Positions 5,367 through 10,856 of a DNA stretch of 35,992 bases are shown here, in pieces. Source of the DNA: Alphaproteobacteria bacterium (GTDB lineage Bacteria; Pseudomonadota; Alphaproteobacteria; GCA-2731375); assembly GCA_030746635.1 (NCBI GenBank), contig JASLMH010000030.1:1-35992 (forward strand), in the 5' to 3' direction. Under the pieces are notes generated by a model. That model did no database searches, was not told the DNA's origin, and saw only the letters and a list, made by a program, of their open reading frames with translations. Every line of letters begins with the position of its first letter. The first letter of the stretch is position 1. Made by a program: the position numbers and the translations under genes.

Positions 5367-6308
5367 ATGCGGTTTGGATTCTACCTGCCGACCCGGGGGC
5401 CGCTCGGCAACCCCGACGACATCGCCGAGATCGCCCGGGCCGGCGAGGGCCTGGGCTATGGGACCATCGTCATCGGCGATCATATCGTCTTCCCGATAAA
5501 GGTCGCCTCGCCCTATCCCTATACCGTCGACGGCGGTTTCCCCGGCGTCGGCGACGCCATGGAACAGCTTACCCTGATGTCCTACGTCGCCGGCATCACC
5601 ACGACGCCGCGCCTGGTGACCTCGGTGATGATCCTGCCCCATCGCAACCCGCTGGTGACGGCGAAGATACTGGCCACCATCGACGTCCTCTCCAAGGGCC
5701 GGGTCACGGTCGGCGTCGGCGTCGGCTGGATGCGCGAGGAGTTCGAGGCGCTCGGCGCGCCCGACTTCGACAAACGCGGCGCCGCCAGCAACGAGTATCT
5801 CGAGATCTTCAAGAAATGCTGGACCCGGGACCCGGTCTCCCACGACGGCGAATTCTATGCCTTCAAGGATTTGCACTGCCAACCGCAGCCGGTGCAGAAG
5901 CCCCATCCGCCGATCTGGATCGGCGGCCACAGCCGCGCGGCGCTCCGGCGCGTCGCCAAATACGGCGACGGCTGGCACCCGGTCGGCGCGACCTCGGCTT
6001 CGCCGCTGGCACCCGGGGAGTTTCAGGGCCTACTGGATGAGCTGAAACGATTGGTGGAGGCGGAGGGCCGCGATTTCGCGGCGCTGACGATTTCCTTCAA
6101 GGCGCCGTCCTATGACCCGGGCCTGATCCCCGAGGGCCATGACCGGTTGCTGTTCACCGGCGAGCCCGAGCGCATCGCCGAGGACCTGCGCGCCTATCAG
6201 GCCATGGGCGTCCATGAGGTCGTGTTCGATTTCCGTAGCCCGCCGGCCGCGAAGACCATCGAGAACATGGACCACTTCATGCGGGAGGTTGCCCCCTTGG
6301 TCACCTGA
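5367..6308 (+). CDS. LLM-class flavin or F420-dependent oxidoreductase
   Basis: A 313-residue luciferase-like monooxygenase-fold protein, probably FMN- or F420-dependent. It starts MRFGFYLPTRGPLG, the typical first strand, followed by AGEGLGYGTIVIGDHI, where the conserved Asp-His of the family falls. LVTSVMILPHRNPLVTAKI and GRVTVGVGVGWMREEFEALG (about residues 110-131) are hallmarks of the subgroup usually annotated as LLM class F420-dependent oxidoreductases, as are PPIWIGGHSRAALRRVA and GDGWHPVG. Flavin and F420 users cannot be separated by eye. ATG 5367 has GAGAGGAC just upstream. It lies 48 bases after the methyltransferase-like gene and probably shares its transcript. Substrate unknown. 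Confidence 0.85.
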   Translation: MRFGFYLPTRGPLGNPDDIAEIARAGEGLGYGTIVIGDHIVFPIKVASPYPYTVDGGFPGVGDAMEQLTLMSYVAGITTTPRLVTSVMILPHRNPLVTAKILATIDVLSKGRVTVGVGVGWMREEFEALGAPDFDKRGAASNEYLEIFKKCWTRDPVSHDGEFYAFKDLHCQPQPVQKPHPPIWIGGHSRAALRRVAKYGDGWHPVGATSASPLAPGEFQGLLDELKRLVEAEGRDFAALTISFKAPSYDPGLIPEGHDRLLFTGEPERIAEDLRAYQAMGVHEVVFDFRSPPAAKTIENMDHFMREVAPLVT

Positions 6309-8152: not shown

Positions 8153-9568
8153 TTAAAACGGCCTTCCGAAAGTCGTCAACACCCACATTGCCACGAGAAA
8201 GACACTGATCAGCGACTGGAGGCCCGAGACCACCCTCACCCAGCCGTGCGCCCGGAGTACGTACTCTTGAGGCTGGATCCTGGAGAGCCAGGTGCCGACG
8301 TTGAGGTCCCGCCAGCCGATGTGAAAGGCGGAAAGCATGGAGAAGTAGAGGGCAAAAGCGACGCTGGCGGGCATGCCGGTGGATAGGCGCTCAACTCGAA
8401 TGTCTTCGGCCGCGGTCATCCCCGTTTTTCCGGGTTCCAAACGTTCTCGCGGCCACACTCGGAAGATGCCATGCGGGTCGGAGGTGACGGCCGGCGGCGT
8501 CGCGATCGGGACGGCGTAGACGACCGCCATTACGACCAAAACACCCAGCATGATCAGCAACGCCCGCTCTGGGTAGAGCCCCCATCCGGTGGTCCATTCA
8601 AAGAAGATCAGCCGGAGCCAGCCGCCCAACACGCGTCCCCAAGAACCGCTCTGCCGGGCATGGCGCGCCTTGCCATGCTCGATGGCGAACGTGGCCTGCC
8701 GCTCCAATTCACGCAGCCCTGCCTTCTTGAGCAACTCGCGAATCCGCACAAGGCCGGTTTGTCCACCCGACGGGAACGAAACACCCGCGAGACCCTCGAT
8801 CCCCTCAAGCTCGCCGCTCGGCGGCGGGGATTCGGTTGCGTAGATAGCTCCATCGAGATTGCTGCGCGCCAGGCGAGCGTTTTCGATGTCTACGTCGGTC
8901 AGGTCGGCCTTTCGGAGGTCTGCGCCCCAGAGGTCGGCCTCCTGGAGGTCGGCGCCCAAGAGCGTGGCCCCCCGGAGATTCGCGTCCGACAGGTCGGCTC
9001 CTTTGAGATTGACCCGAAAGAGCATGGCCCCCTGGAGGTTGGCGAGCCCGAGCTCAGCGCCCTGGAGGTTAGCACCCCAGAGGTTGGCCTCCTGAAGGTT
9101 GGCGTTGAAGAGGTGGGCTTCCCGGAGCTTGGCGACATTCAGGGCTGCCTTCTGCAGGTTGGCCCTCCCGAGGTCGGTCCCCTGGAGGTTGGCATGCCCG
9201 AGATCGGCCTGCTGAAGGTCGGCGTCCCCAAGGTCGCCGCCAGCAATGTTGGCGCCTCCGAGATAAGCCCCTCGTAGGTTGGCCTTCGCGAGATCGACCC
9301 CCTTGAGGTTGGCGTGACAAAGGATCGCCAGACCGGGGATGGTCGGATCCGTCCAACCTTCCTGTTCTACCCAGCGGCCATGGTCCGCCAAAATTTTTCT
9401 CAGCTGCTTCGGCTTCGGCTTCCAGCCCAACTTGCAGGGGCATTGATCGGGCTCTCCGTTCCAGTCCGCCCGAACCGGGCAGACCAAGTCCTCCCGCGTG
9501 GCCGCACCTGCCGCGCCTGACGCGGCCACCGCCAGTACCATCGCCACAAGCAGTGCCCTGATGATCAA
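8153..9568 (-). CDS. Exported pentapeptide-repeat protein with C-terminal membrane helices
   Basis: A 471-residue protein with three parts. Residues 1-22 form a signal peptide ending SGAAGA. About residues 80-235 are tandem A(D/N)LxG-type pentapeptides (such as ANLQGAELGLANLQGAML), predicting a right-handed quadrilateral beta-helix of about seven coils. The C-terminal third has a hydrophobic segment ALLIMLGVLVVMAVVYAV, then FALYFSMLSAFHIGW and the terminal helix GLQSLISVFLVAMWVLTTF. This tail resembles the membrane part of other bacterial pentapeptide proteins, some with a pore-like pattern. Function unknown; nothing marks it as a gyrase-protecting Qnr type. The start is TTG at 9568 with GGAGGGG upstream; no ATG gives a complete signal peptide. 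Confidence 0.8.
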   Translation of the reverse strand: MIIRALLVAMVLAVAASGAAGAATREDLVCPVRADWNGEPDQCPCKLGWKPKPKQLRKILADHGRWVEQEGWTDPTIPGLAILCHANLKGVDLAKANLRGAYLGGANIAGGDLGDADLQQADLGHANLQGTDLGRANLQKAALNVAKLREAHLFNANLQEANLWGANLQGAELGLANLQGAMLFRVNLKGADLSDANLRGATLLGADLQEADLWGADLRKADLTDVDIENARLARSNLDGAIYATESPPPSGELEGIEGLAGVSFPSGGQTGLVRIRELLKKAGLRELERQATFAIEHGKARHARQSGSWGRVLGGWLRLIFFEWTTGWGLYPERALLIMLGVLVVMAVVYAVPIATPPAVTSDPHGIFRVWPRERLEPGKTGMTAAEDIRVERLSTGMPASVAFALYFSMLSAFHIGWRDLNVGTWLSRIQPQEYVLRAHGWVRVVSGLQSLISVFLVAMWVLTTFGRPF

Positions 9569-9731: not shown

Positions 9732-10856
9732 ATGTCGTGCAGTAGCATGGCGATGGGTTGGCGGGGCAGGGATGTGACGCAAGCGGTTGAACGGAAGCTG
9801 ACGACGATCTTCTCGGCCGACGTGAACGGCTTCAGCCGCCTCATGGACGCCGACGAGGTGGCGACGCTCGACACCTTGCGGGACTATCGCGCCACCATGA
9901 CCGGCTTCATCGACCGGCACCGCGGCCGGGTCGTGAACACCGCCGGCGACGGTCTGTTGGCCGAATTCGGCAGCGTCGTCGAAGCGGTCCAATGCGCCGC
10001 CGAAATCCAGACCGAGCTGCAAGCGCGCAACCTCTCGATTCCGGACGAGCGGCGCATGGAGTTCCGCATCGGCATCAACCTCGGCGACGTGATGGTCGAG
10101 GGCGACGACATCTTCGGCGAAGGCGTGAACGTGGCGGCGAGATTGCAGGAGCTGGCGACGCCCGGCGGCATCTCCGTCGCCGGCACGGTGTTCGATCAGG
10201 TCAGGAACAAGCTGACCCTGGGCTACGTCTTCGAGGGTGAAAGATCGGTCAAGAACATCACGGAGCCGGTACCGGTCTATCGGGTGGAACTGGAACCCGG
10301 CGCCGCGACGGATGCCGAGGCGGCCCGACCGCGACGGCAAGCCAACCGACAAGACGACGGTCGTCAAGCGCAAGAGCGATTGAAATTCTACCGCTTTGCC
10401 GCCGGCGGCGGCGTGATCGTCGCCTTTCTGTTCCTCATCGACCTACTCGACGAGTCGGGCAACTGGTGGTTCCAATGGCCGGCCGTGGTGGTCGGCTTCT
10501 TCGTCGCCATCAGGAGTCTCAAGCTGATCGGCGCCGGGCACGGCGCCGGATCGGGCTGGCGTCATGGCCCGACCAGCCGACGGGGAGATATCCCGGGCGA
10601 TGCCGTATTCGCGGAAGACACCACATTCCGCGGCCGGATCGGCGGAAACGCGACGGTGAAGCCGGGCGTGAAGCTTGTCTTGCGGGGCAAGATCCAAGGC
10701 GATCTGATCATCGAACGCGATGCCGTGGTCGAACTCCGCGGCCTAATCGTCGGCGACGTCCGCAACCGCGGCGGCCATCTGGAGCATCGCGGCCGACTGA
10801 AGGGCTCGGAACTGCACGAAGATGTCGGAACGGCCGACCAGGTCGGCCAGCGCTGA
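9732..10856 (+). CDS. Class III nucleotidyl cyclase fused to 2TM domain and bactofilin-like tail
   Basis: A 374-residue fusion. Residues 20-185 are a class III adenylate/guanylate cyclase domain. Metal-binding aspartates are Asp30 in FSADVNGFSRLM and Asp73 in NTAGDGLLAEF; Asn133 and Arg137 in GVNVAARLQ fit the transition-state pair. Residues 216-267 are two membrane helices around a short loop, FYRFAAGGGVIVAFLFLIDL then NWWFQWPAVVVGFFVAI, the pattern of the 2TM domain. Residues 286-358 are short repeats such as RGKIQGDLIIERDAVVELRG, like a bactofilin or similar beta-helix. The cyclase should face the cytoplasm and make cAMP or cGMP. The start is uncertain: ATG 9732, 9747 and 9753 and GTG 9774 are in frame and none has a strong ribosome-binding site. 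Confidence 0.82.
   Translation: MSCSSMAMGWRGRDVTQAVERKLTTIFSADVNGFSRLMDADEVATLDTLRDYRATMTGFIDRHRGRVVNTAGDGLLAEFGSVVEAVQCAAEIQTELQARNLSIPDERRMEFRIGINLGDVMVEGDDIFGEGVNVAARLQELATPGGISVAGTVFDQVRNKLTLGYVFEGERSVKNITEPVPVYRVELEPGAATDAEAARPRRQANRQDDGRQAQERLKFYRFAAGGGVIVAFLFLIDLLDESGNWWFQWPAVVVGFFVAIRSLKLIGAGHGAGSGWRHGPTSRRGDIPGDAVFAEDTTFRGRIGGNATVKPGVKLVLRGKIQGDLIIERDAVVELRGLIVGDVRNRGGHLEHRGRLKGSELHEDVGTADQVGQR

Follow-up and report, generated by a model that had tools for sequence, protein, structure and literature searches.

The open reading frame at positions 9732-10856 on the forward strand of the window, i.e. of the whole stretch of 35,992 nucleotides that was analysed, encodes one protein composed of a class III nucleotidyl cyclase domain, a membrane hairpin and a beta-solenoid tail, and it is not the product of an accidental join. 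This domain combination is real, rare and new, although the membrane cyclases in which it arises are of a known kind. We give about an even chance to the reading that it is a membrane-anchored, probably cAMP-forming cyclase whose solenoid serves for clustering or partner docking.

Results

The frame is open over 374 amino acids plus a stop codon. Since the homology of relatives begins only at about residue 17 and codons 1-14 differ in composition from the rest and look non-coding, translation probably begins at the GTG codon at 9774, which follows GGCAGGGA; this would slightly correct the ORF as first described. The merging of two genes by a sequencing error, which the preliminary description had named as a finding that would overturn it, was ruled out: the cyclase and the hairpin are contiguous in dozens of genomes, the second half of the cyclase, the hairpin and the tail share one frame at a homologous locus (L093), and GC3 is 0.75-0.88 across every part of the ORF. 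The proposed anatomy of a cyclase, two membrane helices and a beta-helix tail was borne out by Pfam and AlphaFold2.

The cyclase domain occupies residues 19-188 (9786-10295, forward strand) and was modelled with a pLDDT of ~95. Pfam Guanylate_cyc matched residues 24-160 above the family cut-off (E 1e-13, 51.6 bits against 21.9), sequence matches in the PDB were 3mr7, Ma1120 and Rv1900c, and the closest solved structures found by Foldseek were likewise cyclases (3mr7, E 7e-18). The metal residues Asp30 and Asp73 and the transition-state residues Asn133 and Arg137 are all present, and each of them is at least 90% conserved in relatives. Alignment with solved cyclases placed Asn69 where a lysine is usual, while the substrate aspartate is kept as D126; in Ma1120, the lysine that usually reads adenine is K101 and its partner aspartate D157 (PMC4215837). 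The earlier judgement that the domain looks catalytically complete therefore holds for the four metal and transition-state residues, but not for the usual ATP-specifying lysine. Rv1900c is active with Asn at the substrate-lysine position, it carries this Asn in the same VNTAGDG motif, and its structure 1ybu contains a substrate analogue, which makes an active adenylyl cyclase likely here too. By this analogy the window cyclase is probably active and cAMP-forming, its product being uncertain. The window's genome (G000) contains 36 cyclase-domain matches, several of them fused to a 'DKPSIAVLPF' region, and 11 cyclic-nucleotide-binding domains.

The cyclase is followed by a 2TM domain (PF13239) at residues 212-276 (10365-10559, forward strand), which scored 26.0 bits and, in the genome scan, 29.3 bits, over the curated cut-off of 24.8, and is the sole 2TM domain which that scan found in the genome. 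Model and hydropathy place the helices at residues 203-239 and 245-270, separated by a short acidic loop and flanked outside by basic stretches. According to the positive-inside rule, this charge pattern predicts that the cyclase and the tail, and thus both ends of the protein, lie in the cytoplasm.

The tail, at about residues 280-357 (10569-10802, forward strand), is predicted to fold as a beta-solenoid of five coils of 16-18 residues. The AlphaFold2 model of the tail, built from two sequences only, reached a pLDDT of ~93, with block means of 93-96 at construct residues 11-70, and the full-length model gave the same solenoid; only the C-terminal end (10803-10853, forward strand), where pLDDT drops to ~50 and below, is unstructured. 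A disordered tail, the other finding that would have spoken against the preliminary description, was thus ruled out. In an alignment of eight tail modules invariant glycines recur about every 17-18 residues. Because an autocorrelation test of one sequence was not significant (607/5000 shuffles), the claim of a repeat rests on this alignment and the model. Foldseek found no match of the tail in the PDB at E <= 0.001, the best fold matches being ice-binding beta-helices, the fusolisin beta-helix and the bactofilin TtBac, all at E 0.2-0.5. Accessory regulatory domains are usual in class III cyclases, and the solenoid might accordingly sense a small molecule or a protein by binding it and so gate the cyclase. 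However, regular solenoids are more often assembly or binding surfaces, and neither the Pfam scan of the tail modules nor Foldseek revealed ligand-binding relatives, so we regard a sensor as very unlikely.

The preliminary description had also called the tail bactofilin-like and polymer-forming. The beta-solenoid and the leading Pfam family agree with this: Bactofilin (PF04519) was the best family in each of the six tail modules scanned, but all Bactofilin matches, including that of the whole ORF, stayed at 15.8-20.1 bits, 8-12 bits short of the cut-off of 27.9. Were the tail a true divergent bactofilin domain, it could form filaments or co-assemble with the host bactofilins and place the enzyme on the bactofilin cytoskeleton. 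In favour of this, Bactofilin ranked first in 6/6 modules read forward (15.9-20.1 bits), TtBac was the best, though weak, PDB profile match of the tail, one tail relative is annotated as polymer-forming and the window's genome encodes two genuine bactofilins. Reversed tail sequences, however, still gave Bactofilin matches in two of six cases (14 and 18.6 bits), and in an hhalign comparison with the clade's own bactofilins, which is rough because one bactofilin row (L147) was taken in the wrong frame, the reversed profile (83%) exceeded the forward one (75%). Since the controls thus score nearly as high in some cases and higher in the hhalign comparison, much of the resemblance lies in the repeat pattern. 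The tail as modelled is, like TtBac, a beta-solenoid, yet Foldseek aligned the two with a TM of 0.26-0.35 (E 0.2-0.5). The polymerisation residue F130 of BacA, a hydrophobic aromatic, sits in the C-terminal interface (PMC12448750). Its counterpart would be looked for in the last coil of the tail, and no aromatic is conserved there among the eight tail modules, but the Pfam alignment stops before the C-terminus of the profile. Membership of the tail in the bactofilins is not established and we consider it rather unlikely, although the tail may operate much as they do. About 3.2% of bactofilins carry N-terminal transmembrane helices (PMC12448750), so that a membrane-anchored solenoid is not new in itself.

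Tail-less cyclase-2TM proteins are widespread, occurring in many Alphaproteobacteria and Desulfobacterota; indeed, most 2TM cyclases lack the tail. The survey of the domain order across Alphaproteobacteria that had been suggested as a check showed that the full order recurs, but rarely: besides the window it was found at L048 (Alphaproteobacteria MAG PW3.metabat2.2) and L093 (genome G236), all of them in alphaproteobacterial genomes. The frame is broken at L048 at about position 5640, between cyclase and hairpin and adjoining a run of seven T, and at L093 within the cyclase. These breaks may be assembly errors or may mean that the gene is decaying there. The tail profile matched strongly in just two of the 385 genomes sampled from Alphaproteobacteria, namely that of the window and G236, and a Pseudomonadota-wide sample of 399 genomes contained no additional full-length match to the 2TM-tail profile. 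In a tree of the cyclase domains the three proteins fell among alphaproteobacterial 2TM cyclases without a resolved placement, which does not settle a single origin of the fusion. Among other 2TM cyclases, the protein at L018 2880-4019 carries an unrelated C-terminal domain of ~110 residues that has no Pfam match, and those at L010, L022, L030, L091 and L094 have the cyclase followed by a pair of 2TM-like hairpins rather than a single one; in L091 and L094 the cyclase domain looks degenerate.

Stand-alone relatives of the tail were found as ORFs of 76-110 aa on plasmids of Sphingobium, Sphingomonas, Rhizobium, Sinorhizobium and Burkholderia, as would be expected of a self-standing module. Those at L107 2480-2785 and at related Sphingobium plasmid loci are annotated as hypothetical, and one of them lies on a conjugative plasmid immediately next to a gene for a tyrosine recombinase. 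No tail relatives were found in phages and viral contigs, and the weak profile matches in other genomes (L118-L127) proved to be glycine-rich repeats, autotransporter-like or of other kinds, or to sit in reading frames of doubtful validity.

The cyclase ORF is flanked by genes for a pentapeptide-repeat protein and a PAS protein. The former (8153-9568, reverse strand) is divergently oriented, 163 bases from the cyclase ORF, and encodes a predicted beta-helix with C-terminal hydrophobic segments. A conserved operon was ruled out, no neighbouring gene being common to the window and L048 or L093. This, the rarity of the tail, the presence of the solenoid module on plasmids and the broken frames of both other full-order members would all suit a captured mobile solenoid gene that persists as a passive or decaying add-on and takes no part in the control of the cyclase. 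The tail of the window is nevertheless intact and foldable, and its key glycines are kept across distant members; a passive tail thus seems doubtful to us.

Discussion

In the reading we prefer, that of a clustering or docking module, the two helices would hold the cyclase at the inner membrane with enzyme and tail in the cytoplasm, where the solenoid might act in assembly or docking. Self-association of the solenoid would raise the local concentration of the enzyme and favour the catalytic homodimer; alternatively, the solenoid might tether the cyclase to a partner and so fix its position. The sequence and the models establish the domains, their order, the catalytic residues and the solenoid fold, from which activity, product, topology and the function of the tail are inferred. 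In class III homodimers the active sites form at the dimer interface, and an oligomerising tail could therefore act on activity. Counted against this are the last coil without a conserved aromatic, the many tail-less 2TM cyclases and the broken frames of both other members. Placement or switching of the cyclase by assembly is plausible. The stronger prediction, that cyclase activity depends on self-assembly of the solenoid and that the polymer state or its position at the membrane sets the second-messenger output, is put forward as a speculative one.

In agreement with the initial claim that no described system ties a cyclase to such a scaffold module, the literature searched, which included few subscription papers, describes no cyclase joined to a bactofilin or to a comparable solenoid; this falls short of proving absence. 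Should the solenoid prove to cluster or position the cyclase, the protein would be a compact example, open to experiment, of cyclic-nucleotide signals controlled by a bacterial structural module. Furthermore, the tail modules point to a small family of bactofilin-like solenoids missed by current Pfam cut-offs.

Among known systems, Pycsar cyclases (PycC) have weak class III similarity in common with the window cyclase, but in Pycsar a cyclic-nucleotide-binding effector lies beside the cyclase; no such effector adjoins the present locus, and a role in Pycsar defence was ruled out. The cyclase domain of Rv1900c (LipJ; 1ybt/1ybu) resembles that of the window in its fold and in the VNTAGDG motif; it is, however, part of a lipase-cyclase fusion (LipJ model NF058673) and has His at the position aligned with Asn133. 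The cyclase-2TM (PF13239) proteins of Sneathiella, Roseibium, Desulfobacula and Microvirga share the cyclase, the WFxWP hairpin and their order, but stop after the hairpin or add a second one, a solenoid being present in none of those examined. Bactofilins (PF04519; TtBac, 6ria/6rib; Caulobacter BacA) have a beta-solenoid like the tail and are the best Pfam match of each module, from which the tail differs by its sub-threshold scores, its approximately five coils, the missing conserved aromatic in its last coil and the lack of a significant Foldseek match. Finally, the plasmid-borne solenoid ORFs of Sphingobium, Rhizobium, Sinorhizobium and Burkholderia, although separate small proteins without a cyclase or membrane part, share 32-48% identity with the tail and show the same glycine spacing.
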